Source of the DNA: Agrypnia vestita | Taxonomy: Eukaryota > Arthropoda > Insecta > Trichoptera > Phryganeidae | DNA: 64,000 bases | NCBI GenBank assembly: GCA_016648135.1 | Contig: JADDOH010023091.1 | Location: forward strand, 124,001 to 188,000 | Reading direction: 5' to 3' | Shown here: piece by piece, positions 125 to 61,443 of the stretch | Layout: each line of letters opens with the position of its first letter | Numbering within the stretch: the stretch's first letter is position 1 | The notes under the pieces: model-generated | Told to the model about the DNA's origin: nothing | Database searches by the model: none | What the model saw: only the letters and a program-made list of their open reading frames with translations | Made by a program: the position numbers and the translations under genes

Positions 125-3100
125 CTGATGGAAGAGGAACAACTATAAAAATCATTATAGGGAGAGTGTTAGTTGGTTAGTAATATCAATAATACATATA
201 TTACAATTATTTCAAAATATTGTTACATGCTATTTATTCTACTGTATCTCCTTAACTATTGATGTCAGGTCATTGATTGCGTGAACATTTTCCACTCTAG
301 ACAGGAATCTACCTAGGAATTAATCATAAATCTAGGAATTACAGCGAGTAATATTATGCATTTATTGCATTCAATCAGATCGAATTTAGCTTCAGATTTG
401 TATCAGTCGGCAATTCCTATCAAAGAATGGGGATCATCATTTTGAATGCATTTTCTCGAATCGTTTTTAAAATGAATTTTGTAACATTTGACATCTCACA
501 ATTAAAAATATCAATTGAGCAGCAACAGAAATTAACATCAAAATTTAAAAAAAGCTAATACCTATATATTTATTAATTAGTAAATACAAGTAAAGAAAAC
601 GTAAGTGCATTTATTTATTATTGAATTTTGCCACACTAGGTAGGTACCGTATAAAATTTTGTTTAGAAATGTGTTTGGTCAATTATGTTTTTATTGATTT
701 TCATAGATGGAGGCGGTAGTGTGCCGCCATATATATTGTATGAAAACTTCGAATAAGTATTTAAAAATTATCACATAAAATTTGAGAATGTAAATCATTC
801 AGGGTAGTTATTGTTTAAATTAATGTAAAAAAAAGTATTTATTGGATAGTTTTGAAGATGTAAGCCAAAATATATAAAAGGTACAACATCCACACGCTTG
901 ACACCAGCCTCTCAACATATATACAAAATCAGACGTATTGGCTGGTAGTGTGCGTCTTCATTGAGATGGCACTTGCTGGACATTGATTTGTTTATAAACG
1001 ATGATTTTTTGTCCATCGTGCGTGCTCTGCGCTCATTGGTTAGCACTAGGTTTATGGCACCTGTCAAATTGATGGATTTCCGATTTGCTTTGTAAATTTT
1101 ACCAAACAGGCAGAAATTTTTTCTGATTATTTTAAATGAGTTTTTATAATGGATCAGTGCAAATATATTTACTGTTTTTTTATTTATTTGGAAACCTCTT
1201 ATTTTTGAAAATCTTGTTGCTTTATACCTATCTTTACAGACACCTGTCAAATTGACGGATTTGGTAGTTTAAAGAATATCCCTCTTGAATTTGTCCATTG
1301 AAATTATTACTTTTGAAACAACATAATCACATTTCTACAATTTGTGTGAAGCAATGAAGAAAGAATGTCATCAATGTTTAGAAAATTTTGTTTCAAACAC
1401 AAATTACAAGTACCTGTGCACTGGGTAAGGCATTTGGAGCATTATGATTTATGGGTCAATTAAAAAAGGTCTCTTCCAGGGTTGATTTCTGGCAATGTTG
1501 ACCATATGAAAATCTTCAGTTTTAGAATTGTAGCCTGTTTATGAAGACTGTATCAAGTTTTAAAATTTTAGCAATACAAATATTTGGAAAGAAAAAATCT
1601 ATTATCTATTATTTTCTAATATTAACTAATTACTTTTGCAATAATATTCATTTTATCTTCACCCATTTTTAGCAAGCATGGGCTTTGAAGCAAATGGGTC
1701 CAGCGGTAGACTGCCTGTTCACCCAATATTCAAAGGTGTCGCAGGACCTACTGGATATTCCAAAAGAAATGTGATGTCGGGTCATGTGCGAACTGCCTTC
1801 GAACTAATAATTGATACGCTCATGTTAGAACATATCAAAGACTGCACAGAAATAGAAGCGCGTTGTGTTCTAAAAAATAATTGAACCATTTCAATTGAAC
1901 AATTGAGGACTTCAGTTAAAGAAAACAGTTAAATAAAACATTTAATACAAAAAAAAAATGAAGTACTTATGTGCATCCGTCAATTTGACGGGTGCCGTAG
2001 AGATAGGTATATCAAAAATGCCCGTAAACCTAGTGTTTAATGAAATTCCGCGTGTCTTATTTCCTGTTACCCATTTTCACGAAATCACTGCCAAAGATTG
2101 CAGGAAAGCGAGAGGGAAGATGTTAACACATCAAAAAAACACATTGAACATTTTTACACTGTCCGAGAGCGACATTGTAACATTTTTATATGCCATTTGG
2201 GGAACGGCGCATTAACACTAAGACCATAGAGGATTTTACAGCTCAAAATAACATTGCTATGAAAACAGTATCACATTTGAGCGTAACAATAAATTGAGTA
2301 ATCAATCGTAAGGTAAAATAATCATACGTAATCAGAAAAAAAAGGGGGCAACTAATTTACATACAGAATGGTTCACATTATTTGCAAGCCAGGCATCAAA
2401 CCACCACAAAATAATAAGATTGAGGTCATTATAACAGGTCCTTCTGAATGTATCTATCTTTGGTATAGGTTAATGTCCTGATTTCAAAATAAAATTGACG
2501 CGCAAGTACAGTTTTACCCTGTTAATTCAAAATTTTTAAAACATGTCCCAAAATGTGAATTTCATAGTAAATTAACCCTGATAATTCGAAAATCCCCTTA
2601 ATTTGTAATATTTTTTAGCCCCTTGCGCCATAAATCAATACATTTTAGTTTGCGTAATTCGATTTTTTTTTGAAATTTGACGATATTGAAAAAATATTTC
2701 AATTTTTTTTCACAAGTGAGAACAACAAATATGTCAATATCGGGTACTTTGAAATGTTGCATAACAAACATTGCATTTTCGAAATGATTTCTTGAAATAT
2801 GAAAAACAGACCTTTTTCAGAAAACAATGGCTTTTTCATGAGTTTTACGATTCTTGGGGTATTTCGCAATCAATTCACAGTACCTTATGGAATGCTCTTA
2901 TCTATACATATTGTGTCGCGATCCCTAAAATTGGGGAATCTTGTGTATGCTTTCGTCTGTTAGCTGCCTTGATATGCGCTGACTTAGTTTGCGGCGTTTG
3001 CGCTAATCCTCATACCTAGACGGGTTTTAAATTGTTTTTAAATTTGTCTTTAGTTCAATTTTTTTCCTAATAACGGTGTTTGTGTTATTAAAATGTTTAA

Positions 3101-6100
3101 TTATCTTTATAAGATGTTATTAGTGATTTACTTTATTGTTTCACGTTTTTATTGACAATTGTATTTCTAGTAACTGTACATTGTTGGTTTGAGGCAGAAA
3201 AAAGGCGGGATCAAAAGTTGAACTCGTGTGAAGATTGAAGAAGCGTTCCCATAAATTCAAGTATAACTAAACATTTTTGAATATGGCTATCCATTCAGAC
3301 GTGATGGAAACAGAATTTTTTTTCGCAACTGAGAACAGCAAATATGTCAAAATGTCACGATCTTTGCATTAACATAATAAATATTGTGTTTTCAAAGTGA
3401 TTTCTTTAAATATAAGCATAAATTTATTAAAATAAAGTTTTTTTTTAAGAGTTTTATATTTTTGGCAAATTTTATGGGTCCCTTGAATATCGAATTGACG
3501 AGGTTTTACTGTATTAAAGAAAATATTACACTTAAAGTTTCGAAAACTGCACCATACTTTTTGACATTTGGTAGGTGATATCTGTGGATGAAGTCTAAAT
3601 CGTAGGACAATATTTACACAACAACAATTTTATTTATAGACAATACCAAATGTTTATCATTGACATAATCATAGACAGAAGAAATATGATAAATACAAAA
3701 CAAAAGATTAGGTGTTAGGTTTGATTTAGTTTAGGTTAACATTTCTTCATTAGATAAAATTAGCTAATTTAGTTTTGATTAGGTTTGGTTTCTTTAGTTT
3801 AGGTTACGATTGAAATTGTTGCATAATATTTTTTAACTTGTTGTGGGCCGTAAATTTTCGGAATTTTTTGTGATTTTTCTTTTTACGAAAAAACCATGAA
3901 AACACACACATTCATATTATTTTATCGTAAGTGTCGAAACGCAATGATTTTTTTATCATTTAAGTAAAAAAAATAATCTTTTTTTGAATTTCCATAATGT
4001 TGCCAGCGCAACATTTTCTGAAAAATAATAATATTTTTTTTATTTGTTTTTAGAGACAACACTACTATTAATAATAATAATCTTCTTCTGTGTGATATAT
4101 TTTGTTGCACGGCACGGCACACGACGGGACATCGCACTCATAACACATAAATATGATACACTTTCACACACACACATATTTCAAATAAACGCAACAAAAT
4201 TGCGTGTATTTTTGTTAATAAATCACTATTAGTATTCAATTGAATCATAAACCAACAAAAACTGACAAATATCGCAAAACATATCGTATATATTTGTATA
4301 TACGTGTACAAATAAATCGAAAATCGAAAAAATAAATCGTATTTCCCGCGCACATTGCGCGTGACCTTGACGATGGAATATTTGAATTTCGATTGCACAA
4401 CACGCGATCGGGGCGACATCTACAACTTCTCTATACGATTTTGACGGCAGAAAAACTTCCGTTTTGATTGTTGATTTAAAATATAATCGGTGATGTTTTT
4501 GAGTTGAAAATGGAACGACAGGTCACAACAGGATTTCTCTATTGGGAAAAAATTACGTTTTTCAAATTCGATACGCGGCCGTCGATAAATAAATTATTTT
4601 GTGCCTGTCGGATATGTGCGTCCGCGGCCCAGGGGGGGTTAATGTGTATGGTTTGTGTTTCGTCTTAGTATATCTTTTTCTATAGTCCTTAAAATGACTT
4701 ATATGGTGCAATTTTCGAAACTTTAAAGCGAAATATTTTCTTTAATACTTGCCCGTCAATTCTGCTTTGTTCTGAAATCACAACTGAAAACACGACAATT
4801 ATATCGATGATACTTTCGGGATCTGTTATAAATGACCATATTCTTTGATTGTGCCAATGGTAAAACTGAATAAATCCGATACACAAATGAAGTAATGAAA
4901 ACACGTTAGCAGTGAGAATGACTAGTAGATGTACAAGATACTCACTTCTGGGAGGGTTCTGTTGGTAATACCCTCCGCCCGCATGGCGCGTGTGCGGCGG
5001 GCCGCCTCCGGGGTGCCTGTTGCCGCCGCCCCTGTAATATCAACAAATACCTTAGTCACCTGCAGCTAATATTACCAATGTAGGACTATTTATTATTGTT
5101 TACCTCATAATCTAGGTTTCCTCAGTTTAAATTACACTAGGAAGGATCCATTGGATATTAAACCATTTAGAATCATTGGCAAAGCATAGGGTGAGAAAGT
5201 CATTCATGTTGGAAATAAAATAAATAATAATCGCAAAAGGCAAGGGACTGAAATTTTTTGCTGTCAAATAACAAAGCACCGCTTATTTTAAATTCATGAA
5301 AAAATCAAAATAATAACTGTATAAACGTGGAAAGGATTTGATGTACATATTAAATTTTAAATTAAATGAAAATTCACTTGGATACCACTATCGTTTTGGT
5401 AACACCAACCAGTTTCGGAACCATTGCACATTTTAGTTATTTGGACTGTACTTGCTACTGGAACCACCATTTTTTTTCAGGGTACACTATAAAATGTGGG
5501 CAATTATATTTTTAGCAACTTTTTTTGTGTGTACCTGCTGTATAACATTATTTTCAACATTCATTTGTCTGTTTTGTTTCCTTTTTTTCCAAAATTATTT
5601 CAATTTTAATGTGCATTTCTTAATTTGGAACTTGACAACCATTGCATGTATGTACTAGCATCTAGGTACATCTCGTTATAACGAACCCCTTTATACCGAA
5701 AAATGTCATATATCGAAATTTTTTTTAAAATTAATCCCACAAAATAAATTTTTCATACAAAAATGTATTTATATAGCGAAATTTCGTTAATATGTATAAC
5801 AAAATAATTTTAGTTCCATAGGAAAGACACATCCATACATTTACGTAAATATATAAGGAATTTTTTTGTCAAAATGTCATTGAGAGATGGATAGTTTTAC
5901 GGCCTGCATGCCAGCCATGTAAAAGGCAATAAATCTCTGGGCATGGGCTCCTGCAATTTTTGTATTTTTGGGGTTTTTAAATTCTTTAAAATTTCTCCTT
6001 AGGATTTTAACCCGCCCCTATAAAGCATTTTACCATAATCCCTGTGAACTCTAGTTGGGACAATAGTTTTATTGCCCATTGTCAAAAAAGGTTAGAATGA

Positions 6101-9100
6101 GGCATGTATGTATTGTCTTCTAGAATCACGTAAAAATATTACATCGAATTTTTCATACAGATTGTACTTAAATCGAAATATCCCAATATGTATGACGAAA
6201 AAAAGTTTGTTCAAACAAAATAATAATATTGCGCAGATTTTTTTCGCACAAACACGCGATGGGGAATGACCCCGCAAGCCGCCGCGTCGCAGGACACAAA
6301 GTCGCACGCATGTGTACGGCCGCTTTGAACTGTGAGCGCCTCTACGATCATTTATTACGCGCAATATTATCAGAATTTTTCATTTTCACTATTACCTTCA
6401 ACTTTTATCACTTTTCATATTGTACTTCAATATTTACATTGATTGCATTGTGTACGGCATTTTCGAGGGCCAGAACTACCAGCGCGGCGCGGCGTTCGCG
6501 GCATTTTCTGTCACCAAAATTATCATGTGAGATTCTTATTTTGAGTCAAATAACTGAGTTAATTAAATACAAAACTAAACAAGGGAAAATAAATTATATA
6601 ATTTTAAGAGATCGATGTTTTACTGTACGCGTTTTACGGTATACGTACCTATGTAATTTATGTGATTATTAATTTTAGAAAAAAGTGTCAGATTTCTCAG
6701 GGACATTAGTTTTAAATGCTCGTAACTTCCTTTGATTGCTAAATGTCTTATTACGTAGCATCCGCATAAACCGACAATGGGGACTTATTCAAAACCATTT
6801 GCGATCTCTTTTAAGGCCGCGGTACTTTTTTTGCTATGGCGCACAATATACATATTAGAAAAAAAAATTGTTATATGTGGGAATTCGTTATAACGAAATT
6901 TATATTTATCGATCCCTTGGATTTCGCAATAACGAGGTTTTACTGTATGTGTCTTTTTAGTTGAAATAAAATAAGTGTCAGGTGCTAAATGGTGCACAAA
7001 TTGGCAAGTACAGCCAAAAAAGTTAAAACGTATGGTGATTCCGAAACCGGTTGGTGATACCAAAAATATAACAGTTTAAAACAAGTGAAGTTTTTTTAGT
7101 CTGCCATTGTTAGTAAAGAAATGTAGGTGGATACGCTGGACATTTTGTTTGCAAACCATATGTAAATGTATCTTCTAAATTGCAATAAAAGCTTTAAATG
7201 TGTAGCTGCAACTCGATATGACACATTTAATTTTGTACCCAAAAAAATTTGCTATCATTGTACCCAATGGATAGCAAATTTTTTTGGGTACAAAATTACA
7301 ATGTACAAACAATGGTTTTTAAAGTATTATACAAAAATAATATTATGTATTAGGCAGTTGGCCATGTTCCAACCTGTTGGTATAGGAGGGCGGCGGCTGG
7401 TGATGGGGCAGAGGGGGCGGCCGCTGGATCGGCGGGGGATACCGCTGCTGCTGCAGCCCACACCTGCTGATGGCCATGTTCAGGGAAGCCTGTCTGCCGT
7501 TGGGCTGGATCACCTGGAAACCACGATGACACACAAATGTTACTCAAGGTCGAGGGCTGACTGATAAGCTGCACAGTGTTATTTACTCGCCTCATAGTCT
7601 AAGTTTCCTCAGTTTAAATTACACTAGGAAGGATCCATTGGAATATTCGATCAATTATAATCATCGACAAGTTCAGTTTTAATTGAATGCCATAACTAGT
7701 GGATAAAGTACCTGTTGCATGTGCTGGTACTGTTGATACTTGTGGTGGGGCGGGCTGTGCTGCTGCTGAGACTTGCCCCCGCCCTGCTGCTGCTGCTGGC
7801 CGAAACCTCCTCCGGCTCCCTTGTTGGGGCCCTGCTGCTGCGCCTGCTGGGGACCCTTGGGCGAGGGGGCCCCTCCGTGCCCACCGGCCCCCTGCTGGGC
7901 GAACCCAGAGTTGGATAGTTGGCAGAACATGCCGTTGTTTTGGTGTTCCTGAAATGAGGATGATAACTTTCTTGATTCCAAACATGGCATACTTCAAATA
8001 TTTTACCAACTGTGATTATCAATTTAATACTTAACCCTTTACATGGCATTTTTTTTTGAAATTCAAAACCGGATGGCACACCATACGTAAAAAAAAATGG
8101 TTGCGAATGATAGAGAGCAAACTTTACGTTTCTGGACATTTTACCAACCAATTAACATTTTTGAGAATGTCCTAGATTACTAAGGTTGATACTAAGAGTT
8201 ATATATTAATTATTGACCCAAAATGATTAGTCGACACATCTACCAGTTTTGGCCTAAACCTTATAAAGTTTTCAGTAACTTTGAAAATCAAAGGAATTCT
8301 GTATCAGTTATAAACCTGTTTATTTTTGGTGAAACCTATTTATGAAAAGCGAAAGTAAAACATACAAAGCAATTCAGAACTGTCAGCCACCAAATGAGAA
8401 ATCTGCAAAAATTTTTTGGAAGTGATTTCCTATGATCCCTAACCAAAATGAAGTACAATGGCTTCATAGTAAATTTATGTGGCTTAAGGCGGAACATTCA
8501 TTTTTCAAGCTGTCAAAGTGGCGATATGTGTCGGATATATCATGCTATTTCAATACGAGATCGAGACATGAACAAACGTCATATCAGATAAACCTTGCAA
8601 GAGCGTATTTTTTACGTGCCTTGTGAGATAGAAAGGTTGCGAGGAAACGAGACAACCATATGGAGTACCGACGTTTAAAATATATGGGAACGCAAGTCAT
8701 GCTCGCGTAATATTATTAGAATTTTAAATGTTTTAAGTCTAGAATATAAAAAAGCGTATGTATATTTCTCCAATAATTTAGGTGTTGTAAAAAAAAAAGT
8801 AAACAACAATTTTTCTTATATCACTGTTTTTTAATTTAAAACTTTTGTCGAATAAGCAGATTTAGATATTATTTTGACTTCCGACTGAAATGTCAAAACA
8901 CCTGTGAAAATAATTGAATTTAAATAATTTTTATTTAAAATAAACAAAAAACTACTACAACAATATGTATTGAATTAAAAATAAAATTAAAAACCATTTA
9001 TCTATATTTTAAAAATTATCTCGTAAATTAATATCTTACTTGACTTTCAAATAACAATGACATCAACACGAATATAGCGAGTAATAGCAAGTCAGCAAAA

Positions 9101-33100: not shown

Positions 33101-36100
33101 AATGGTAAGAAAGATATATGATGCAAGTGTTGACGGCGCCAGAAAGAGAGGGCGACCACGGAAGACGTGGCATGACCAGATTAACCAGATACTGGAAGAT
33201 GGTCCTGTTAGAAGCCTGAACAACCGTCGAGCTTGCATGCATGAATGTAGACGCAAAGATGTATGAATGTAGACGAAGCGAAAGTTGTATGTCAGGACAG
33301 GACAGGACAGAAGAGTATGGCGCTCTATCCTCTCTGCCTACCCCCACGGGGAAACGGTGTGATGGTAAGTTAGTTAGTTATAAAATGTATAAAATCAGAA
33401 CTATTATAAAGGGTGTTGCCATGTTAAAATGTCAAGTCACAAATCAGACCGTCAAGTGATCATCAGCTGTGTATCAGTCGGCAATTCCTATCAAAGAATT
33501 TGGATCATCATGTTTGTGACTGACGGTTAAATTTCTAATTCCAAGGACAACGAATAGTGAAATGCATATTTGACTAAACATGATCATTACTGCTATGATG
33601 GCATATTTTGATGATAGTTATTGTGTAGTGCACGTATACTACTTTCAATAATAAAGTCTGTGAAGTCGGTAGACCGGAACACAAGTTGTTTGTCTTATCT
33701 GTTTGCATCTTACATAGCGAGTCGCTTATCGTGTGGTTCATTGTGTAATACATATATATTTGTGCAAGATTTCATTCTCAATTGTATAATCAAAATGCTT
33801 TTTGTATTTTATTATTTTTTTGTGTTCTTCAAACAATGCGCTAAATATTTAGAAACAAATATTATTTCTTTTTTACTTATTTTGAAATTAAAACAGGCCT
33901 GTGCCTGCAAATTATAAATGAAGACTGTTGTAATATGGGATTGATATAATACTCGACTAAGCGGTGGAAAGAGCACCAAACATTTCTCTACTGGCGCGTC
34001 ACACCTGCCTCATCCAGACTCGGATTGTTGAAGCTTCACGAAATAGGGACATTCTCCAATATTTTGCTTATGTGATCATGCCAGCTATTTCTATTCCTGT
34101 TGGCTTTAACATCCGCTTCGAATGTTTTCTTCATCATCCTCTCCTCGCTCAAACCGCATAACGAATCCAGCATATTCCAAAATTAATATTATTTTTCAAT
34201 ACCAATTCCAATTTATATTTTGTTTCATATTAAATAAAGTATAAAAAAATTGAGTAATTTTGCATAATTTTAATTTAGATGATAGATAGACCGAGATGAG
34301 TGGAGGAAAATTATTGAGGATGCCAAGACCCACCAAGGGTTGTAGTGCCAAGAATGATGATGATGATATTAATGTCTGTTTTACATTTTTCAAGAGTAAT
34401 TTTTTAACATGTATATATAGTTACCGTGGTGTTCTGCTGCGGCTGCGGGCATGTCTGTCCGGGCTGTTGGGGTGCTGCTGTGGGTGGGGAAGGAGGAGGG
34501 CCCGCGGGGGCCGGGGGGGCTGCGGGTGCTGTGCCCTGTTGCAGCGGGGGAGGCTGCGATGGCGGTGTGCTGCTGCTACTGAGGGCCCAACAAAACAGAT
34601 TAGCTTCCTTAGGCTACACATATCCATGTTCCAACACAGTGATACATTACTCGTCAGATACGATTCCGATCTTCAATTATGTTTCAGTCGGCAATTCCTA
34701 TCAAGAAAATGGATCATCATTTGAGTTTTTTTGTATCTTAGTACTAAGAGAGTTTGTGAAAGATTTAAAAAATGATAAATATTTGGTAGAAAATCAATAA
34801 CACGTTAAAGAAGCCCTCAATATGATGGATGGAACACTGTCGTACTTATTCTCAATCATGTGTTGAAAATAGCAATAATCTTAAATATATATAAATAGCA
34901 AGATTGTTATGGTTATTGTTACCTCAACACTCAGAAATAAAAGACGCCTGTAATTTTTTTTTTAAATAAAGATGCGAACATGGAATACGTGTCACATTAA
35001 TATTCTTACTATTTTTAAACTAAGCTAAACGCCTGTGCTATGAAAATAGGACTATCTTGGTAGTCTGGAGTGAGGTTCGAACCCGCGACCTTTGGATCAC
35101 GAGGCGAGTGTCCTAACCACAAGATTAACAAGCTACCCTTTTTCTTTTTTATATATAATTTTATAAATAATATATTTTTTTATATACATGTGTAATGAAA
35201 ATTTTGTTTTTAATTTAACATCTGAACTCTTTGTATGAAGAATCAGTGTGAGTGAAACATACTGATTTGTGATAACTTTAAAAATAAATTTAGTACTTAT
35301 TTTATATAATATTCGTCACTCATATTTTATCCAAAACTCCAGATTGAAATCATCGGGTCGTGTGGTGATCGAAATGTTTGACATTTTTATCGCCGAGACA
35401 TCAAATAAGTGGGTATTTCTTTAGTACACTAAACACTACAGTACATGGGTGTAACAAAATATTGATGTACCTATTTTGATTTAAAATCGTTTATATGCCA
35501 TTGTTCTAAAAGTGGCATTACATCTATGTAGACAGAAACCCACGTTGGTTATTAGTCTTATAAATCCCTTACACTACCAATTTCTCGTACTGAACATGTT
35601 ACCTTGATTAGACCACACAGATTAAGGATTTATTTCCAAAGATCTCATCCAAAAATGCAAGTTGTAAATGCAAATTAATTAAGTGATTACACGGGCATAA
35701 AAATGTCCCGTCTATTTTTTAGTGTTGCGAGACAATCACCAAATAGCAATATTGTTATTTTCAGAATGGGTCGGACAATGACGGTTGTGTTCGAGCCGAG
35801 ACCACGGCTACAATGCCAATATTCAGCACTTAATGAAACTCGGAAATTAACGTTGGATAAAGGTTCACAATCACAGCTACCTACATACCTGCTAGTGTTG
35901 GTTTCCTGTCCTGACTCGGTCTTCAAGGAAGGCAGGTTGGCCGGGGGTCGGCGGGCCGAGGGGACCTTGCCCAAGCTTTGCATGCCATGTTTACGGGAAA
36001 GTTGAGATTTCACTGACGACGGTTCTAAATTTTCACCCTGCAACAAGACAATCAACGCATCCTATTAGATTGAAATATCCACTTTAAAGGTAATATACTT

Positions 36101-39100
36101 TGAAAGGTCTTTGAACTATGTGTGTTATTAAAACGTAGCGGAAATTTGAAAAATATTATTTTTGCAAGGCTTCGCAATTTCTCAGAAAACAAATCAGAAA
36201 TATTAAAAAAAAAAAAAAAAAAGGAATATTTTGAAATCGCTCATCTCCATAACTGTATACATATCACCAATATTCAAAATTGAATGAAGAAGACTCCCCT
36301 AAAGTTTTTGCTACTAGCTACGAGACACCTGTATAAAGGGAAACATTTGTATATTGATTAGTAATAAACTGGAATGAATAACCCAACCCAGTGGAAAAAA
36401 AACTTATCTGGAGTAATTGCATCTCGTGCAACTCTACCCGTACAATGTTTGATAAGCGGTCATATAACGATATTGATTTAACATGAACATTTACTATCTG
36501 TTACGCTGCAAATTATCAAAATAATCCAGAATTAAGTTGATTCAAATTTTTCCATCGAAAATTTTACTACACTTCTGAAAGATAATCAAATGTATCGTTG
36601 AGAAATATGTTATCATTAGGGTTATTTAAAGTTTGAAATATTACGATGCAAGATTGTAAAACTATTACTATTTGTCACTCCGTCAGAAATGTTTCCGATC
36701 TTCAGTTGTGTTTCAGTCGGCAATTCCTATCAAAGAATAGGGATCATCATTCGGAGAACAAATACGGAGTGGAATAACTGTACCAGATGGCAGTTTAATG
36801 GTCAAGGTTAGTGCACCATCAGAATCCAGCACAAAATAATGTTGACAAGTTCAAATACCTCAGAGTGCAAGTCTCTAATGACAGGAGAGGCCATTAATGG
36901 TGTTACCTTTATAATGTGGTGATAATGAAATCTAAGATTAGTGTCAACAGAAAACTGACTACATTTAAAGCTATGGATGAATGCACCAAACATACAGGGA
37001 GAGTGAGGTTTAGAATCCAGGCTGCCATAATGAATGCTTAGATTTTCAATATAGCAGCCAAGAGTAATAATATCAGACCGATTGAGAAGTTGCACGGGGC
37101 TCTTACTTCTACATATTGCGGGCTCAAAACACGAATTAGAGAGAACTGAGATAGTTACACCAAAAAAATCTTCAAATAGTAAGCTATTTAATGCTAAAAC
37201 TAGATAATTATAAGTAAACTAAATCATTAGCTTTGGTCGAGTGACGCTACGAAAGGGAGTAATAAAAAATTTCCAAAAATCCAAAATTATACTATAATCA
37301 GGTTCCGTGTCTACCAGACACGTTGAAATGTTTTCATACAACTTAGTAAGTTGTATGAAAAAAGCATTAAAAATTTAAAAAATCCAAAAATTTATTAATT
37401 TTTTAACGAAAATTTGATAGATATTCTTGATCGTTGCCACGAGTCTGCTTGCAAAGTTTCAGCTCAATTGGATCATGGGAAAAGGGTTAAAAATCGATCC
37501 AAAGTTTTTTCGTCAAGGAAACAGACGCCACGAGTTAATATAAAGGGAGTAAAAAACTAACCCATAAAAACAAAGTTTTTATTTTACTCCCTTTCTTTGT
37601 AAATTAAGTTTACCATCATGTAATTAAATAATTGATTGACTGAAAACGAAACATGTCTAGTCAAATATTTATGTCAAAAATCTCTAAAAATATCTCTTTA
37701 TTATTTGATTTCTTCCCAAAAAAATCAAAGTGTGCTGTCATGTGTGAACCAATTGTCATAAATTTTCTAAATTCGTAGTGAAGAACCTATTATACCTACC
37801 GACGGAGTAATTCAAATTTTAAATACTCCGTGACGTTATCGGGCCACCAGTGCCATTGGTAGTAATCAAACTTTTGTAATGATTCCAATTTGAAAAAACC
37901 ATTAAAATTTCTAAAAATCCAAAATCATACTATAATTATTAATTTTTTTTAACGAAAATTTGATAGATCGTCTTGATCGTCACTACGAGTCTACTTGCAA
38001 AGTTTTAGCTCGATTGGATCACAGGAAAAGGGTTAAAAATCGATCCAAAGTTTTTTCTTCAAGCAAACAAGCAAGCAGACGCCATGAGTTGAAGTAAAAA
38101 TAGATAACAAGAAAAAATAATTATGTTTAAATGGTATGATTAAATATCTGATTTTATGATAAATAATTACTTCCTTCAATTGTGATTAAGTCTGCATTAA
38201 ACAGATCACAAATAATCATTCTGATATTTAACTGTAATTTTGGATATTTTATACGCACCGTATGTATTGTGCGTATACATACGGTGTGTATAAAATATCC
38301 GAAATTACAGTTAAATATGTCTAACGACCGTAATAACAACCTTAACTCTTTAATCATTCTGATGTATTTATGTATATAATAAGGATGATGGGTGTTTTCA
38401 AAACCAAAGCTGATTAAATTGAGCTATATGAAGAATCAAATTCCAGAAAATGGTCTTATGAAATTATCAAGTTTTTGGGCCCTGTATTTAGATTCTATGG
38501 GTGAATGTCATGGAATGTAGAAAGCATACTATGATTAGTTTTTATTACATATATCTTAAGATTTGTTTGTCAGTGTAGAAAATGTGTTCCATACTCATTT
38601 TGTACTATGAAGTTATTTTCTGATCTTCTAGTAGAAGAATTATGAATTGTGAAATCAGTGAGCAGATTGCATGAGCCTTAGGTTGTTAGCGATCAATGTG
38701 ATAATATTCGTATCATTGGTGGCATCTAATTTTTTTTCATAGAGATTTCATTGTATTTATCTCAAGGGTTCATTATAATGCTATTAATAAATTATATTAG
38801 AAAAAAAAGTGCACTGAAGATTATAATTAGCGAGAAGAAGGACTTTAATATGCATGAAAAATTAAACTGCAACCATTCACAACCATACTTTTTCAGTTAT
38901 TAAGTTCTAGTGTTCAGCCCACGAAATATAAACATCTTAAGCAGAAACATATCTTGTCAAGACTTTGGGATGAAAATGATGATGACGATGAATGAAGAAT
39001 AATATTACTGTCAGACCCAAGGTGACTGTTTGGGTAATTATTATGAATTTGACGTTCAGCGATGCATCAGACCGGGGTAAATAGTCTACTTACCCTGCTG

Positions 39101-39234
39101 TGGCAATAGAGATTATTGATGTCCAGCTTCTGAAACTTGCTCTTGCCGGAGGTGGCGGGCTTGGAGTGCTGGGCGGGTGGAGCCGCTGGTGCTGACGAAG
39201 TCCCTCCGCCGCCCGGCGCCGACAGTGCAGACAT
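1..39234 (-). CDS. nocte: PRRC2/nocte (BAT2 N-domain protein), 17 coding exons, C-terminus outside window
   Basis: Spliced gene read on the minus strand. The 17 exons listed separately join with consistent phases into one frame of at least 2,517 codons. Family identity rests on the BAT2 N-terminal block (residues about 33-92, KFQKLDINNLY then SLGKVPSARRPPANLPSLK), the EFPSL motif (174-178), RPII with a following acidic stretch (284-292), FSDEES (about 317), the RG-rich centre, and the C-terminal blocks GQLGTNPSTVLISS, TNSLMSASVKPS, QQIGAIG and TYQTQQYLGYG that mark PRRC2 proteins. PRRC2 proteins are cytoplasmic, disordered, RNA-associated proteins linked to translation initiation and stress granules. 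Drosophila nocte is needed for temperature entrainment of the clock. Composition is Gln, Pro, Ser and Gly rich with no membrane segment. The gene ends beyond position 1. Confidence 0.93.
366..450 (-). ncRNA. C/D-box snoRNA, family A copy 1 (nocte intron 16)
   Basis: C box ATGATGA (434-440), D-prime box CTGA (403-406), D box CTGA (375-378). The ends form a perfect 9-bp terminal stem, TGCATTCAA with TTGAATGCA, one base outside the C box and directly against the D box. Same strand as the host gene, 241 nt above the exon 17 acceptor. The D-prime guide (GATAGGAATTGCCGA) is shared with all family members. Confidence 0.85.
2509..3511. mobile_element. Pogo-like non-autonomous DNA transposon in nocte intron 16
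   Basis: Ends begin CAGTTTTACCCTGTTAATTC on the left and, as reverse complement, CAGTAAAACCTCGTCAATTC on the right, both flanked by TA. No transposase frame is visible inside. Confidence 0.6.
4946..5031 (-). CDS. nocte: nocte exon 16 (residues 2448-2477), Gly/His-rich
   Basis: 86 nt, acceptor TTACAG|GGG, donor AGAA|GTGAGT. It encodes RGGGNRHPGGGPPHTRHAGG and GYYQQNPPR. Supported by phase on both sides, good splice sites and a GC content far above the intron. Confidence 0.87.
5099..5183 (-). ncRNA. C/D-like snoRNA, family B copy 1 (nocte intron 15)
   Basis: Ends pair as TTTGCC with GGTAAA (one G-U). C-box-like AATGATT follows the stem and ATGA precedes the 3-prime stem; a perfect CTGA lies inside. 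It contains TCCAATGGATCCT, complementary to the 18S rRNA sequence AGGATCCATTGGA. It lies 67 nt above the exon 16 acceptor, the typical distance for intronic C/D snoRNAs. Confidence 0.65.
5660..6946. mobile_element. Degenerate pogo/mariner-like element in nocte intron 15
   Basis: The right end (as reverse complement) reads CAGTAAAACCTCGTTATTGC and the left end retains CTCGTTATAACGAA. Internal copies of the CGTTATAACG motif occur. The centre (6230-6350) is a GC-richer patch with reading frames on both strands that resemble nothing I know and are not called as genes. Confidence 0.5.
7229..7297. repeat. Perfect 28-bp inverted repeat in nocte intron 15
   Basis: Arms 7229-7256 and 7270-7297 are perfectly complementary (outer part AATTTTGTACCC), with a 13-nt loop that itself contains a second copy of the word GTACCCAA. 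A stable hairpin in the primary transcript. Confidence 0.85.
7374..7513 (-). CDS. nocte: nocte exon 15 (residues 2402-2448)
   Basis: 140 nt, acceptor TTCCAG|GTG. It encodes VIQPNGRQASLNMAISRCGL, then QQQRYPPPIQRPPPLPHHQP. The donor AACAG|GTTGGA is weak (no A at +3, no GTRAG core) but joins exon 16 in frame. Intron 14 upstream (7514-7711) is only 198 bp and carries a family B snoRNA. Confidence 0.86.
7585..7672 (-). ncRNA. C/D-like snoRNA, family B copy 2 (nocte intron 14)
   Basis: Terminal stem ACTTGTC with GGCGAGT (7 bp, two G-U pairs) flanking GATGATT and ATGA. Same 18S-complementary core and internal CTGA as the other family B copies. The whole intron is only 198 bp and the element ends 71 nt above the exon 15 acceptor. 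Confidence 0.65.
7712..7948 (-). CDS. nocte: nocte exon 14 (residues 2323-2401), Gln/Gly-rich
   Basis: 237 nt (79 codons, phase 0 both ends), acceptor TTTCAG|GAA, donor CAACAG|GTACTT. It encodes EHQNNGMFCQLSNSGFAQQG, then Gly/Gln-rich low complexity, ending KYQQYQHMQQ. Open reading frames in the other five frames here are shadows of this GC-rich repeat. Confidence 0.92.
9778..10061. repeat. Foldback (palindromic) MITE in nocte intron 13
   Basis: Two arms of about 130 bp, inverted around position 9915, with scattered mismatches (shared words include AAATGCCGAAATATGCATTT). Flanks are TA-rich. Part of the expansion that separates family B copy 3 from exon 14. Confidence 0.75.
12681..12774 (-). 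ncRNA. C/D-like snoRNA, family B copy 3 (nocte intron 13)
   Basis: Core identical to the other B copies (18S-complementary segment, internal CTGA). The outer ends can pair TTTGCTT with AAGCAAA, but a few bases further from the boxes than in copies 1, 2 and 4. It sits close to the exon 13 donor, not near an acceptor; the rest of intron 13 is expanded by repeats. Confidence 0.55.
12869..13045 (-). CDS. nocte: nocte exon 13 (residues 2264-2322), Gln-rich
   Basis: 177 nt (59 codons), acceptor CTGTAG|GTG, donor CTGCAG|GTAACC. It encodes VLSSPFQMAAAAAMQQQFGR and a Gln/His/Pro-rich tail ending LKSPLQ. Phase 0 at both ends, so skipping it would keep the frame. Confidence 0.92.
13530..14059. repeat. 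Interspersed repeat family E, copy 1
   Basis: Shares long similarity with 15585-15850, 42520-42930, 51420-52090 and 59135-59410. Shared words include GGGAA(A/T)GTAGGTA, a GAAG-CTTTTGG-TGT stretch, ACATCT(A/G) and GTAACATTC. Some copies are inverted. No coding capacity; probably a non-autonomous DNA transposon whose family I cannot name. Confidence 0.6.
14062..15579. mobile_element. TA-flanked DNA transposon with a second MITE nested inside (nocte intron 12)
   Basis: Outer terminal repeats CAGTGAAACTC(G/T)CTTAATA at both ends in inverted orientation, flanked by TA. Inside lies a second element (about 14548-15183) with ends CCGGCGTCACACTA and, inverted, CCGGCGCCACACTA. No transposase frame survives. 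Confidence 0.7.
14548..15183. mobile_element. Nested GC-rich MITE with internal CTCGCGCGTAAA repeats
   Basis: Inverted ends GGCCGGCGCCACACTA-like on both sides. The interior repeats a CGCGCGTAAA(A/G) motif at least five times on either strand (about 14820, 14900, 15050, 15095). Base composition is strikingly higher in CG than its host element, a composition shift typical of a separate, later insertion. Confidence 0.6.
15585..15850. repeat. Interspersed repeat family E, copy 2 (partial)
   Basis: Contains the GGGGACATCATTAATCGAG, GGGAAAGTAGGTATGGA and ACTCAAAATATTCTGA segments of the family. It abuts the right end of the TA-flanked element at 15579, so that element probably inserted into an existing family E copy (the left half being 13530-14059). 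Confidence 0.6.
15986..16101 (-). CDS. nocte: nocte exon 12 (residues 2225-2263)
   Basis: 116 nt, acceptor TTGCAG|GT, donor TCACAG|GTACAT. It encodes GGQTGFYQQPGNVSANYGIQ followed by FGQPNQSHNSASIQSFGSQ. Both splice phases agree with the neighbours. Confidence 0.92.
16219..16310 (-). ncRNA. C/D-like snoRNA, family B copy 4 (nocte intron 11)
   Basis: Terminal stem CTTGCC with GGCGAG (6 bp, one G-U), C-box-like GATGATT, end box ATGA, internal CTGA. The same 13-nt complementarity to 18S rRNA is retained although the segment between C box and guide differs from copies 1 and 3. It ends 117 nt above the exon 12 acceptor. Confidence 0.65.
16631..16810 (-). CDS. nocte: nocte exon 11 (residues 2165-2225)
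   Basis: 180 nt, acceptor CTGCAG|GT, donor ACTG|GTAGGC. It encodes GTKGSTYQTQQYLGYGGPHD followed by a Pro/Ala-rich part and NTYYSQNTG. TYQTQQYLGY matches the family. Intron 10 upstream of it is only 125 bp, the shortest in the gene. Confidence 0.94.
16936..17083 (-). CDS. nocte: nocte exon 10 (residues 2116-2165), PRRC2 C-terminal block
   Basis: 148 nt, acceptor TTGCAG|CAA, donor ATTG|GTGAGA. It encodes QDLFQAAGSAAFGQSGQLGT, then NPSTVLISSSTNSLMSASVK and PSTQQIGAIG. This is one of the best conserved segments of the PRRC2 family C-terminal half. Confidence 0.95.
17084..18029 (-). other. Intron 9: no snoRNA or mobile element recognised
   Basis: 945 bp. The stretch 17480-17870 is clearly less AT-rich than other introns but has no open frame, no boxes of families A-C, and no similarity to the repeats elsewhere in the window. 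Its nature is unknown. Confidence 0.5.
18030..22305 (-). CDS. nocte: nocte exon 9, giant exon (residues 690-2115)
   Basis: 4,276 nt of uninterrupted frame. It starts REYDERDEDYRWEKD with many Arg/Asp/Ser/Glu-rich repeats and DRKS-type units. It continues through SNIGSRIRLDSGG, FVVYRGGNWQSRGG and an RGRG-rich stretch, then a long Asn/Gln/Ser/Pro-rich disordered region, a SQHN repeat, and ends MFQGLQGQYRM before the donor ATG|GTAAGA. The RG-rich centre is the probable RNA-binding part. The acceptor is unusual: a T-run followed by AAG at 22306-22308, not CAG or TAG, yet the phase fits exon 8 exactly. An additional tiny exon in intron 8 cannot be excluded. Confidence 0.94.
18630..18865 (-). repeat. 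SQHN-type tandem coding repeat inside nocte exon 9
   Basis: About twelve degenerate units of the form S-Q-H-(N/S/G)-(M/L) in a row (for example SQHNLASQHNLTSQHNL). At DNA level each unit is a GTTGTGTTGGGA-like 12-15 nt block on the plus strand. Such His/Gln repeats vary in length between populations and are a likely source of length polymorphism in this protein. Confidence 0.85.
22441..22476 (-). pseudogene. Family A snoRNA copy 2, 3-prime half, split by a LINE
   Basis: Holds the D guide, the D box CTGA (22448-22451) and the 3-prime stem TTGGATA of a family A snoRNA. The 5-prime half is found about 5 kb away at 27458-27506, on the other side of the CR1-like LINE. The break falls just after the D-prime box, at GTAT. 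The copy cannot make a normal snoRNA. Confidence 0.8.
22892..25861 (-). pseudogene. LINE ORF2: AP endonuclease plus reverse transcriptase, one in-frame stop
   Basis: 758 codons, a TAA at 23585-23587, then 231 further codons in the same frame with only AAA-TTG between stop and continuing sequence. Endonuclease motifs: LNLNIRSLEKNFDN, ILTECWTT, YRSP, IAGDINI, DHYS. Reverse transcriptase: NYRPISILNLLSKLLEKC, QFGFRKNRGT, ALDLTKAFDTVSH, GVPQGSTLGPVLFLLYINDL, catalytic FADD at residues 699-702. After the stop comes the RT thumb region (VKYLGIIIDRHLNW). Both catalytic domains lie before the stop. Confidence 0.9.
26115..27131 (-). CDS. LINE ORF1 protein with N-terminal PHD-like zinc finger
   Basis: 338 residues, intact. 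The N-terminus has a PHD-like Cys4-His-Cys3 pattern (CESPLL..., CSVCNDTYHYSCVG, WKCKKNC; residues about 3-55). A coiled coil follows (residues about 75-160, heptads in EEITKIRQEFKTELSNLKTE and following), then a C-terminal domain with a basic, nucleic-acid-binding look (TIHVLRFRSKLKRDLLLKEA). ORF1 proteins of this type bind the element RNA and form the ribonucleoprotein particle. The C-terminal WVNCNGFIYVRATD resembles other insect CR1-like ORF1s. Confidence 0.82.
   Translation of the reverse strand: MHCARKECESPLLLEDALTCSVCNDTYHYSCVGQSERNFRKLGDKSKSWKCKKNCLFQDTICTKTTNKPLNNSLEENIASILEEITKIRQEFKTELSNLKTEISKSIDFCLNRIVEVDNRVSELDKRIKPLDNLEEELKLLKTDLNQQRDTLNQQEQWQRSKNIEIHGLPPISETHLFDTFKNLARCYNIELNEDDIEYSHTITLPATSNHAVTIGGVGQSRPSQLSVSGQTHTAVQRTIHVLRFRSKLKRDLLLKEARRHKGLTAANLGFTNSTGLIYVNVNLTKSNRNLYKKVRDIAKQTQYKYSWVNCNGFIYVRATDNSKIIKILNDNDLNKII
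27458..27506 (-). pseudogene. Family A snoRNA copy 2, 5-prime half, split by a LINE
   Basis: Holds the 5-prime stem TATCCAA, a mutated C box (ATAATGA instead of ATGATGA, 27492-27498) and the shared D-prime guide and CTGA. The stem still pairs with the other half (TATCCAA/TTGGATA), so the two pieces were once one RNA gene in intron 8. GTAT occurs at both junctions and is the likely target-site duplication of the LINE. Confidence 0.8.
27559..28692 (-). CDS. nocte: nocte exon 8 (residues 312-690), coiled coil and RD-rich segment
   Basis: 1,134 nt between TTTTAG|CC and AATAG|GTGAGT. It begins QKLAFSDEESPSKE and then encodes a charged helix (VWAMRQRQHSNEVAAAVERA and RKLQEERRYQQQLQEAAAA), likely coiled coil. 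A run of Arg-Asp dipeptides (about plus-strand 28060-28180) follows, then RG/Gln-rich sequence. The preceding acceptor lies only 72 nt downstream of an H/ACA snoRNA in intron 7. Confidence 0.93.
28765..28895 (-). ncRNA. H/ACA-box snoRNA, family C copy 1 (nocte intron 7)
   Basis: The 5-prime hairpin is closed by GCATTC/GAATGC (28890-28895 with 28838-28843), directly followed by box H AGACTA (28831-28836, ANANNA). A second hairpin (ATGCA/TGCAT inner stem) follows, then TCC, four bases and ACA (28768-28770). Total about 131 nt, the normal H/ACA size. It ends 72 nt above the exon 8 acceptor, on the coding strand. Confidence 0.7.
28935..29062 (-). CDS. nocte: nocte exon 7 (residues 270-312), RPII block
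   Basis: 128 nt, acceptor TTCTAG|CGC, donor TACAA|GTGAGT. It encodes RMREVPTIDKMVQRPIIREE followed by ELTSMDD and DAGWATHDDIDY. The RPII(K/R)EE motif followed by an acidic DD...GWA segment is a PRRC2 family block and continues into FSDEES in exon 8. Confidence 0.93.
29174..29248 (-). ncRNA. C/D-box snoRNA, family A copy 3 (nocte intron 6)
   Basis: C box ATGATGA (29237-29243), shared D-prime guide and CTGA, D box CTGA (29078 region of the repeat, precisely 29178-29181), terminal stem CCAA/TTGG. Only 54 nt below the exon 6 donor and 111 nt above the exon 7 acceptor in a 239-bp intron. Its D guide (AAGCTAAATTCTGT) is nearly that of copies 1 and 4. Confidence 0.82.
29302..29418 (-). CDS. nocte: nocte exon 6 (residues 231-269)
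   Basis: 117 nt (39 codons, phase 0 both ends), acceptor TTCTAG|ATG, donor CAGCAG|GTGAGA. It encodes MCKGSTGAGGPGGYPPVFG and then a Ser/His/Pro stretch ending NRGQQ. The internal Met here is not a start because exons 1-5 join into it in frame. Confidence 0.88.
29808..29943. repeat. Foldback MITE in nocte intron 5
   Basis: Arms AAGCCCGCCATTCACGGGC and GCCCGTGAATGGCGGGCTT are perfect inverse complements and continue inward imperfectly over about 55 bp each. It lies about 50 bp from the family C H/ACA copy 2 but is separate from it. Confidence 0.8.
29997..30127 (-). ncRNA. H/ACA-box snoRNA, family C copy 2 (nocte intron 5)
   Basis: Homologous to copy 1 over its full length. 5-prime hairpin closed by GCATTC/GAATGC, box H AGAGTA (30060-30065), second hairpin with ACAAAC/GTTTGT, closing pairs CGGCGGA/TCCACTG, and ACA at 30000-30002. 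Spacing of H and ACA boxes equals that of copy 1 although the sequences between differ, as expected for conserved structure. Confidence 0.72.
30960..31072 (-). CDS. nocte: nocte exon 5 (residues 193-230)
   Basis: 113 nt between GAACAG|CG and TTT|GTAAGT. It encodes EGSWLAGGGSR and an Ala/Pro/Gly-rich tail ending PLPPF. Only the phase match with exons 4 and 6 and the high GC support the full extent; the content is weakly conserved in the family. Confidence 0.87.
31162..31240 (-). ncRNA. C/D-box snoRNA, family A copy 4 (nocte intron 4)
   Basis: C box ATGATGA (31227-31233), D-prime CTGA, D box CTGA (31168-31171). Terminal stem CAA/TTG with further A-T pairs beyond one mismatch. The intron is 210 bp and the element lies about 90 nt above the exon 5 acceptor. 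D guide AAGCTAAATTCGAT is the same as in copy 1. Confidence 0.8.
31283..31415 (-). CDS. nocte: nocte exon 4 (residues 149-193) with EFPSL motif
   Basis: 133 nt between TTCCAG|TCC and CAGA|GTAAGT. It encodes SHQHAGGYPGGWAALPP and then FQQEFPSLDGG; QxEFPSL is a signature of PRRC2 N-terminal regions. It leaves with one base of a codon, which exon 5 completes as threonine. Confidence 0.93.
31696..32231. repeat. Foldback MITE, CAGGGTTATTTG family, copy 1 (nocte intron 3)
   Basis: Left end CAGGGTTATTTG, right end its inverse complement; arms of roughly 240 bp meet near 31965 at TTCCAATTGGAA. Second copy at 54471-54971. Diverged single-arm relatives at 240-310, 36120-36345, 48540-48830 and 55850-56095 share TTTGATGTCGC(A/T)TATCTCC. 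Confidence 0.8.
32875..33385 (+). mobile_element. Degraded LINE 3-prime fragment (RT C-terminal region)
   Basis: Conceptual reading with frame breaks gives YGSEAWSW, RSLRRMCGKSMYDRVKNEDI, WFGHV, RGRPRKTWHDQI and LSAYPHG. These are motifs of the C-terminal tail of RTE-like LINEs common in insects. Opposite strand to nocte; followed by GGACA tandem units. Confidence 0.7.
33435..33521 (-). ncRNA. C/D-box snoRNA, family A copy 5 (nocte intron 3), new D guide
   Basis: Perfect 9-bp terminal stem AGTCACAAA/TTTGTGACT around C box ATGATGA (33505-33511) and D box CTGA (33444-33447). It also has a clear C-prime box (TGATGAT in CTGATGATCA). The D-prime half is the family standard but the D guide (ATCACTTGACGGT) is unlike the other copies, so this paralogue probably has a different second target. 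Confidence 0.85.
34425..34578 (-). CDS. nocte: nocte exon 3 (residues 97-148), Pro/Gln-rich
   Basis: 154 nt. The acceptor CCTCAG|T completes the split serine codon from exon 2 and the donor is ACG|GTAACT, phase 0. It encodes a low-complexity segment of serine, proline, alanine and glutamine. The GC content is far above that of the flanking intron, as for every exon of this gene, which helps fix the borders. Confidence 0.88.
34649..34726 (-). ncRNA. C/D-box snoRNA, family A copy 6 (nocte intron 2)
   Basis: C box ATGATGA (34714-34720), D-prime CTGA, D box CTGA (34654-34657), stem ACTC/GAGT. D guide AGATCGGAATCGTAT resembles copy 7 only in its first part. It ends 70 nt above the exon 3 acceptor, the classic spacing for intron-encoded C/D snoRNAs. 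Confidence 0.82.
35061..35138 (-). repeat. tRNA-derived SINE head in nocte intron 2
   Basis: On the minus strand a B box GGTTCGAACC (35074-35083) and an A-box-like TTGTGGTTAGGACA lie at tRNA spacing, and the ends can pair GGTAG/CTACC. The anticodon arm does not pair, so this is a tRNA-related SINE remnant, not a working tRNA. Confidence 0.6.
35570..35780. repeat. Segment shared with 58790-58941 and 60298-60345
   Basis: Similarity covers words such as TTAGACCA, AAATTAATTA, GGGCATAAA, CGTCTATTTTT and ATCACCAAA. The distant copy is interrupted by a hAT-like element; this copy shows the uninterrupted order. Unclassified interspersed repeat. Confidence 0.6.
35889..36037 (-). CDS. nocte: nocte exon 2 (residues 48-97)
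   Basis: 149 nt between TGCAG|GGT and AGCAG|GTATGT; it enters at phase 0 and leaves with two bases of a codon. It encodes the most conserved block of the BAT2 N-terminal domain: LSRKHGMQSLGKVPSARRPP followed by ANLPSLKTE. This block alone identifies the PRRC2 family. Confidence 0.95.
36678..36756 (-). ncRNA. C/D-box snoRNA, family A copy 7 (nocte intron 1)
   Basis: C box ATGATGA (36744-36750), D-prime CTGA, D box CTGA (36683-36686), perfect stem CTCCG/CGGAG. D guide AGATCGGAAACATTT. The standard D-prime guide is intact. Confidence 0.83.
37250..38095. repeat. GGGAGT/ACTCCC repeat family D, copy 1 with internal direct repeats
   Basis: Two direct copies of a 250-bp unit (37255-37545 and 37865-38095) contain ATCCAAAATTATACTATAAT, GCAAAGTTTCAGCTC and AGGGTTAAAAATCGATCCAA. 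They flank a segment with ACTCCCTTT and CGGAGTAATTC. Related copies: 47480-48435, 50215-50815 (inverted), 61120-61190. Confidence 0.6.
38224..38318. repeat. Foldback hairpin element
   Basis: Arms of about 43 bp with one or two mismatches (outer part ATATTTAACTGTAATTT), short loop. Located in nocte intron 1. Confidence 0.8.
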
Positions 39235-39292
39235 GCTGCCACCTTGACACCATTAGAGAACCAACAGGACACCCGGAGAACGAGACCCGTTT
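39094..39292 (-). CDS. nocte: nocte exon 1: 58 nt of 5-prime UTR plus codons 1-47
   Basis: The ATG at 39232-39234 has A at -3. It opens a Gly/Ala/Pro-rich leader followed by KSKFQKLDINNLYCHSR, the start of the BAT2 N-terminal domain. The donor is AGG|GTAAGT at 39094/39093, phase 0. A strong acceptor (long pyrimidine tract then GCAG) sits at 39293, so this exon is not the transcription start and there must be an upstream non-coding exon. The UTR part is 39235-39292; it contains an out-of-frame ATG at 39253. Confidence 0.9.
39235..39292 (-). promoter_or_regulatory. 5-prime UTR with out-of-frame upstream ATG overlapping the nocte start
   Basis: The spliced leader just before the start codon contains an ATG (39251-39253) 19 nt upstream of the nocte ATG and in a different frame. 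It has C at -3 (weak) and G at +4. Its frame runs about 50 codons through the nocte start and stops only in the exon 1 / intron region, so it is an overlapping uORF. The main ATG has the better context, implying leaky scanning. Confidence 0.75.
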
Positions 39293-42270: not shown

Positions 42271-42375
42271 GATAATGTATACATTAACTAGTTTAACTTA
42301 TTGCTAGTGCATATATATATATTAGTTATAACTCATAGTTTGTGTATAAATATACTAGTTAATGTATACATTATC
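42271..42375. repeat. Foldback element with 22-bp perfect arms
   Basis: GATAATGTATACATTAACTA at 42271 and its inverse complement ending at 42375 flank an AT-repeat core. Part of the presumed 5-prime intron of nocte. Confidence 0.7.
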
Positions 42376-42519
42376 GAAATTTAGCACAATGTAACGTTCT
42401 CTATTTCCACCCATGATAGAATACAAAAGTCTACTAATTTTTCTTGGAAGTTGTATATATTTTAATTATACGGCTTGTTTCGTATATGTGTTGCAAACAA
42501 TCCTCAGTGCGGCTGGCAA

Positions 42520-42930
42520 CCAAAGCTTTTTCATTCCCCTTAAATGATCACAGATGTCACTAACGAGACATCTATTTTTGATTTTTCGGAGTTTGTTGGC
42601 AATATTCTTTATTTGTGTAATGAGATTCTTCTAAATTATTAGCATTACACTAGAACATGTCAGAAATATTATTATAAATTTATTCAACTCCTTTTTACCA
42701 GGGTTCTCATTCAAAATATTTTGAGTACGTCCATATTTTTCAGAACAGTACTGGGTTTTTACGATAGGTCGTAAGCCCTGTGTACACCCAAAGACTTCTG
42801 TACCTACTTTTCCATAAAAAATACAATTTCGTCTATGTGAGACATCTATAATATATTGATTGATTAATGATGTCTCTGTGACAAAAATCCAGTAGTTCTG
42901 AAAAATTTGGACATACTCAAAATATTGTGT
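42520..42930. repeat. Interspersed repeat family E, copy 3
   Basis: Carries ACATCTATTTTTG, AAAGACTTCTGTACCTACTT and TCAGAACAGTACTGG-like words, in inverted orientation relative to copy 5 at 59135. Confidence 0.6.
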
Positions 42931-42969
42931 AATTTAACACTTTATAACATATATACGTAAATCAATGCT

Positions 42970-44460: not shown

Positions 44461-44660
44461 ATTGCATGTCTAAAATGCCAACAACTTCTGCAGTGGTCAG
44501 AAGTTAGAATATTAAATACCTGAATATCGAGCAAAAACCCCTGGTGGGATTTGCATGAGTTTATTAATATTGATTCAGACGGACAGACCAGACGTAAGGT
44601 TCAATCACCTCACATGACTCAATTGAAAGGTAATCAAACAACAGTGTTAAAATTCTCACA

Positions 44661-44740
44661 CACTCAATCAGACAACTTACTCTTCATATGTGTTTCAGTC
44701 GGCAATTCCTATCAAAGAATATGTTTCATCATTTTGAGTG
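44661..44740 (-). ncRNA. C/D-box snoRNA, family A copy 8, upstream of nocte exon 1
   Basis: C box ATGATGA (44726-44732), D-prime CTGA, D box CTGA (44668-44671), perfect 7-bp stem CACTCAA/TTGAGTG extendable by a G-U. D guide AAGAGTAAGTTGT is unique. It lies 5.4 kb above coding exon 1, on the same strand, and most simply resides in a 5-prime UTR intron. Confidence 0.82.
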
Positions 44741-61440: not shown

Positions 61441-61443
61441 GCT

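Follow-up and report, generated by a model that had tools for sequence, protein, structure and literature searches.

Closest described systems

Box C/D small nucleolar RNAs (snoRNAs) of the SNORD49 or U49 type (Rfam RF00277, clan CL00062) carry the guide AUAGGAA(N)UGCCG near the D' box, and U49/SNORD49 is assigned to Cm4426 of the large-subunit (LSU) ribosomal RNA (rRNA) (PMC3511168), a position also numbered Cm4456 and given as the SNORD49 site (PMC9941101). Here we analyze a repeated element, family 1, in 64,000 nucleotides (nt) of the trichopteran insect Agrypnia vestita (C18027:124001-188000, hereafter the window; contig C18027 has 321,580 bases, in an assembly of 1.32 Gb). Family 1 shares with SNORD49 the C/D boxes, the guide near D' and the register of its LSU pairing. 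It differs in having one more LSU mismatch, in scoring below the Rfam gathering threshold, and in its arrangement as eight copies in one protein gene and five elsewhere in the assembly. The host is a gene with a BAT2_N domain (PRRC2/nocte) on the minus strand of the window; we use nocte, also the word of an initial annotation of this DNA, for what we take to be the insect PRRC2 gene.

A second described group consists of snoR77Y, HBII-135 (SNORD65) and snR77 (clan CL00057), which have the guide GGAAUU.CCG in the same register to 18S Um578/Um627. Unlike these RNAs, family 1 has a G-U rather than an A-U pair at the modified base, does not have the extended 18S pairing, and scores below the snoR77Y gathering threshold (33.2 of 52). 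As for multi-copy C/D families in one host gene, the present case comprises two families and twelve copies in one insect PRRC2 gene, with some copies also outside it. Most likely we are dealing with an ordinary class in unusually clean form, namely a set of guide snoRNAs that has expanded within the introns of a single host gene. A literature search by title and start of abstract returned no report of the family in nocte; it did not cover Drosophila snoRNA tables, so an earlier description in flies is possible. The main text of PMC13228274 does not contain the word nocte.

In our judgment, family 1 is probably a box C/D snoRNA family that is processed from nocte introns, guides LSU methylation at the U49 site, and has multiplied between introns. 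According to this model, processing of the nocte (PRRC2) pre-mRNA introns would yield the snoRNAs. Their D' guide, UUGAUAGGAAUUGCCGA adjoining CUGA, has as its predicted partner LSU UCGGCUCUUCCUAUCA, which lies beside the peptidyl-transferase centre. The pairing would direct 2'-O-methylation of the C equivalent to human Cm4456, which older numbering calls Cm4426. The unit of about 75-90 nt would have spread between introns, mostly inside one gene, with selection retaining the boxes, the guide and a closable stem while the remainder drifts. We infer transcription, assembly into a small nucleolar ribonucleoprotein, methylation and the target in this species.

Copies and anatomy of family 1

The family has seven intact copies and one split copy in the window:

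365..448, minus strand: family 1 copy a, with terminal stem CATTCAA/TTGAATG
29168..29251, minus strand: family 1 copy b, in inferred intron 29301-29063
31158..31241, minus strand: family 1 copy c, in inferred intron 31282-31073; the weakest terminal stem
33434..33519, minus strand: family 1 copy d, with a 9-bp terminal stem
34644..34728, minus strand: family 1 copy e, with one T fewer before GATAGG
36673..36758, minus strand: family 1 copy f, between the start-codon exon and the BAT2_N exon
44658..44740, minus strand: family 1 copy g, located 5' of the start-codon exon
27458..27506, minus strand: family 1 split copy, 5' half, with C box ATAATGA, guide and D' box
22441..22476, minus strand: family 1 split copy, 3' half, with C'-like box, D box and the 3' stem half of TATCCAA/TTGGATA

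The initial annotation had placed the element at eight sites, always on the host coding strand, with a perfect C box, an internal CTGA and a terminal CTGA in every intact copy. This description holds throughout: all eight places contain the element, 8/8 copies lie on the host coding (minus) strand, and the seven intact copies all have the C box ATGATGA, an internal CTGA that is an invariant D' box, and the terminal CTGA. Each intact copy thus has a C box RUGAUGA and a D box CUGA near its ends, the criterion for box C/D RNAs, and a C'-like box (UGAAG or UGAUG) is likewise present in 7/7. The core GATAGGAATTGCCGACTGA is identical in all eight copies. Across the intact copies, 21 consecutive columns spanning the guide and D' box do not vary, and neither do the C box and the D box; the stretch from D' to D and the flanks have diverged.

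The motif ATGATGA by itself is mildly enriched (21 occurrences in the window versus 13.6 expected; 5/100 shuffles equally high). When the seven intact copies are used to build a model, their own E-values are 3.3e-18 to 7.2e-24, which is by construction, and the split copy, which was left out of model building, scores E = 1.5e-10. A box-and-stem scan for C/D candidates at window positions 1-50000 recovered three of the eight copies of family 1, on the minus strand, plus a single weak match on the plus strand. The scan is therefore insensitive and says little about further snoRNAs.

The terminal stem varies in sequence from copy to copy, and all seven of its pairs (7/7) have changed on both sides. 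Stem cells are paired in 42/49 cases (85.7%), compared with 59.9% in shuffled data and 29-43% in slid controls (maximum 42.9%). No shuffle among 500 reached the observed pairing score or covariation score, and 3/500 reached the number of doubly changed pairs. Four of the eight copies have 8-9 contiguous stem pairs, and copy f has 5; random flanks give at least 8 in about 0.6% of draws and at least 9 in about 0.2%. Taken together, column invariance, stem covariation and the model E-values rule out a chance origin of family 1.

Predicted target in LSU rRNA

Over 13 positions, the family 1 guide AUAGGAAUUGCCG and the SNORD49 consensus guide AUAGGAAGUGCCG are identical at 12 and differ at one base. 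The conserved LSU sequence TCGGCTCTTCCTATCA pairs with the 16-nt family 1 guide at 14/16 positions, all of them Watson-Crick. We used as test sequences four contigs from bacterial metagenome-assembled genomes that bear eukaryotic LSU rRNA, and in 4/4 of these contigs TCGGCTCTTCCTATCA is the best ungapped partner of the guide. On the single contig tested with shuffled guides (L018), 5/2000 matched at 14/16 positions. The duplex on this contig has a predicted energy of -24.7 kcal/mol, which takes in three outer pairs with bases that are not known to be conserved; the SNORD49 consensus gives -19.2 kcal/mol there. The position methylated by a box C/D snoRNA faces the fifth guide base from D'. In family 1, this base faces the C of UCGGC in the LSU rRNA, in the Cm4456 register; we take this C to be Cm4456 itself on the basis of the SNORD49 alignment and of position counting.

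The suggestion that this is not a described family is therefore only partly borne out. In a search of the window against Rfam there was no match at curated thresholds, and the element resembled several C/D families at relaxed ones, none of which reached its gathering score. On the other hand, the guide is one base away from the SNORD49/U49 consensus and addresses the same LSU site.

Within the assembly, TCGGCTCTTCCTATCA was found at one place, L044 (C2795:56350-56650), where the surrounding sequence is unlike ribosomal DNA (rDNA). We also considered that the LSU rRNA of this species might be altered so as to pair with the guide at every base, but rejected it: the extra TCGGCAATTCCTATCA sites proved to be further snoRNA copies, and nothing therefore supports such an alteration. 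In the same D' register, to which the search was limited, no separate canonical U49 was found within one mismatch of GATAGGAANNGCCGACTGA.

Genomic distribution and spread

Searching the genome for GATAGGAANNGCCGACTGA with up to one mismatch gave 13 places, all of which have TT at NN and zero mismatches; a reversed control pattern had 2 matches. Such counts are lower bounds, so that there are at least 13 family 1 copies: 8 in the window, 2 on C8965, 2 on C16747 and 1 on C18091. The initial annotation had described a local expansion of a guide RNA within one host gene, with no copy in the 19 kb beyond that gene. The absence nearby is confirmed for the rest of C18027 (19-nt core, up to 4 mismatches), where none further was found; the search for more divergent copies, beyond one mismatch, covered this contig. 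Local multiplication, C/D anatomy and an intronic position, wherever exons can be placed, are also upheld. Confinement to nocte is not, given the five copies on three other contigs.

The copies on C16747 and C18091 have almost the same flanking sequence as those on C8965. They are therefore probably alleles of the C8965 loci or overlapping contigs, and the five outside copies probably stand for about two loci. One outside copy is followed, after about 65 nt, by an apparent 3' splice site. For the host of the second locus, a Pfam search of four candidate exons gave one match below the cut-off, to CTC1. Similarity between the C8965 and nocte copies spans only about 74-86 nt, and thus the unit that moved is approximately the snoRNA itself. 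The copies form a clean natural series for the multiplication of a guide snoRNA between introns: thirteen copies with the guide untouched, the bodies drifting, the stems re-paired and one copy broken by a retrotransposon.

Alternative explanations

Several observations weigh against family 1 being a U49-site guide that spread between introns. Its scores stay below the Rfam gathering thresholds (SNORD49 28.4 of 37, snoR77Y 33.2 of 52, SNORD79 30.5 of 47). Two adjacent mismatches with the LSU rRNA, at positions 6-7 from D' and beside the predicted methylated base, are invariant in 13 copies, which drift would not predict, and invariance runs a few bases upstream of the LSU pairing. The stems of copies b, c and e are short, with 3-4 contiguous pairs, and one of five covariation measures, the number of stem pair types, was equalled by 42/500 shuffles. 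Finally, the species' own rDNA was not found (a canonical 28S 21-mer has 0 matches in the assembly), and the LSU target could therefore be tested only on the rRNA of other eukaryotes. The invariant mismatches would be explained if the guide had moved to, or also served, the 18S sequence CGGUAAUUCC, because a single substitution in the U49 guide creates ten uninterrupted 18S pairs. This site is named human Um627 and yeast Um578, with HBII-135/snR77 as guides (PMC3511168), and family 1 would then be a dual guide to the LSU and small-subunit (SSU) rRNAs. The ten pairs (nine Watson-Crick, one G-U) set the U of CGGU opposite position 5 from D', and the two pairings together account for every base of UGAUAGGAAUUGCCGA. 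By bit score in the relaxed Rfam search, snoR77Y also ranks first in 6/7 intact copies (best 33.2), SNORD79 being first in the other (30.5). By E-value, however, SNORD49 beats snoR77Y in 4/7 copies, ties in 1 and loses in 2. Moreover, a 10-nt run is not rare by chance, being equalled by 224/300 shuffled guides, the 18S energy is -16.5 kcal/mol versus -24.7 kcal/mol for the LSU, and the G-U pair falls at the modified base. We regard a dual or transferred guide as unlikely.

The same invariant mismatches, together with the conserved bases upstream of the rRNA pairing and the Rfam scores below cut-off, could also be read as marks of a decoy, or of an orphan C/D snoRNA whose target is not ribosomal, with no more than a resemblance to U49. 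Since the LSU match is in the U49 register and rare among shuffled guides, we find this unlikely. A very improbable explanation, already disfavoured, is that the copies are short interspersed repeats without function that multiplied by retroposition. Similarity between copies at different loci does stop at about 74-91 nt, roughly the snoRNA unit, as such repeats might show. Yet copies are few (13 within one mismatch in 1.32 Gb), no decayed ones occur on C18027, where they were sought, the stems are compensated, and within nocte a single strand is used. The initial annotation had named many copies elsewhere with flanking target-site duplications as evidence against its reading; no flanking direct repeats above background were detected in 15 copies (ten of family 1 and five of family 2), among which the split copy is uninformative as its 3' flank is a retrotransposon.

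Host gene and intronic setting

Splice sites were placed from the DNA sequence alone, and the following exons of the host gene were recognized:

39094..39292, minus strand: host start-codon exon, ATG at 39234, MSALSAPGGGG...KLDINNLY, read from the sequence
35889..36037, minus strand: host exon with the BAT2_N domain (PF07001, E = 1.1e-22)
27559..28692, minus strand: large host exon with 15 unnamed protein-database homologues (best E = 7.2e-49)
18040..22305, minus strand: largest host exon, boundaries approximate

Wherever the splice sites on both sides of a copy are readable, the snoRNA is the only one in a short intron: copy b lies inside inferred intron 29301-29063, copy c inside 31282-31073, and copy i of a second family, described below, inside 7711-7514. 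A putative 3' splice site at 34579 follows the D box of copy e at a distance of about 75 nt. The start-codon exon begins at an apparent 3' splice site, and copy g is therefore probably in an intron of the 5' untranslated region. For copy a no downstream exon could be placed, so its intron is inferred.

Two genes of the PRRC2 family have described links to the ribosome or to snoRNAs. Human PRRC2B associates with the 40S subunit (PMC12700102), and PRRC2A is listed as the host of SNORA38 (PMC5025248). The locus studied here places two guide families in a PRRC2-family gene.

The copy split by a retrotransposon

A long interspersed nuclear element (LINE) separates the halves of the split copy:

22477..27457, minus strand: LINE retrotransposon with RVT_1, Exo_endo_phos and Baculo_FP_2nd domains; ends approximate

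The LINE inserted between D' and C', with ATAC at both sides, and its second open reading frame (ORF2) is broken by a stop. The detached 3' half retains the terminal CTGA, and the two halves still form an 8-bp stem, from which we conclude that the insertion is probably not very old. The ATAATGA C box of this copy may reflect decay.

A second C/D-like family in the same gene

With a repeat finder, we detected a second C/D-like family that the initial annotation had not noticed, with four copies at 5.1, 7.6, 12.7 and 16.2 kb:

5091..5188, minus strand: family 2 snoRNA-like copy h, ahead of a putative exon start at 5031
7578..7676, minus strand: family 2 copy i, in inferred intron 7711-7514
12677..12775, minus strand: family 2 copy j, following a putative donor near 12868
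16211..16315, minus strand: family 2 copy k

The boxes are degenerate, with a C-like AUGAUUA in 3/4 copies or AUGAUUC in 1/4 and a D-like AUGA. The copies have an invariant stretch, CAATGGATCCTTCCTAGTGTAATTTAAACTGA, and terminal stems. The stem is 85.7% paired, the best of all slides, but with four rows only it is not significant: 118/500 shuffles are as high on pairing and 88/500 on covariation. A genome search for the 32-nt stretch with up to 3 mismatches gave five matches, all exact, of which four are in the window and one is on C3815, where the copy has a stem of its own.

The 5' part of the stretch forms a 15-nt run with the 18S sequence GAGGATCCATTGGAGG of L049, an 18S-like record from outside this species, and 1/300 shuffles equalled it. 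This site is the Am541/Am590 region, served by snR41/U62. The record itself (NZ_CP050525.1) is filed as an Acinetobacter baumannii plasmid and carries no annotation; it matches a 54-nt eukaryotic 18S query exactly and is apparently eukaryotic rDNA. Family 2 resembles snR41 and SNORD62 (clan CL00068) in its C box AUGAUUA and in CCAAU..UCC antisense to the Am541/Am590 region. In the snR41 model, CUGA closely follows the guide, whereas in family 2 it stands 17 nt beyond the GGATCCTT-side pairing, and no D or D' box lies directly 3' of the antisense. Family 2 is therefore a candidate rather than a demonstrated canonical methylation guide for that site. The snR41 model scores 14.7, 16.1 and 18.7 bits (E = 6.6, 2.4 and 0.53) on the 3/4 copies tested singly; these values are not significant, are below the gathering thresholds (50 for snR41, 39 for SNORD62), and are surpassed by the lower E-values of other Rfam families on those copies. 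The whole-window Rfam scan gave no snR41 or SNORD62 match for family 2. A genome search with RF00153 also had no match, but is uninformative because its 14 controls gave none either.

On the strength of the antisense run, family 2 may be an 18S-directed guide. The introns of this gene house two small guide RNAs, one in eight copies and the other in four, that probably direct chemical marks on rRNA; the arrangement is of a known kind, seen here in a clean local example. A more elaborate scheme, which we think quite improbable, would have the family 1 guide serve both LSU Cm4456 and SSU Um578/Um627, with each base needed by one of the pairings and for that reason invariant over the copies. Family 2 would reach 18S by a long antisense that lies away from the D' box, and would guide folding or acetylation instead of methylation. 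If this were true, guides for the peptidyl-transferase centre and the 530 loop would have their dosage bank in a translation-factor gene.

Other features of the window

Some further elements were seen in the window:

57426-57511, plus strand: sub-threshold twister-P1 ribozyme match (51.6 bits, gathering 67.2, E = 1.3e-8), with a nearly intact conserved core and a longer internal stem
38222-38317: near-perfect inverted repeat with weak Rfam matches to mir-975, mir-568 and mir-460 on one or both strands; it has the look of a hairpin of the miniature inverted-repeat transposable element type
9815-10024: two inverted arms of 105 nt that abut each other and have 84% complementarity
61443-61596: a 77-nt unit present twice in tandem, with 99% identity

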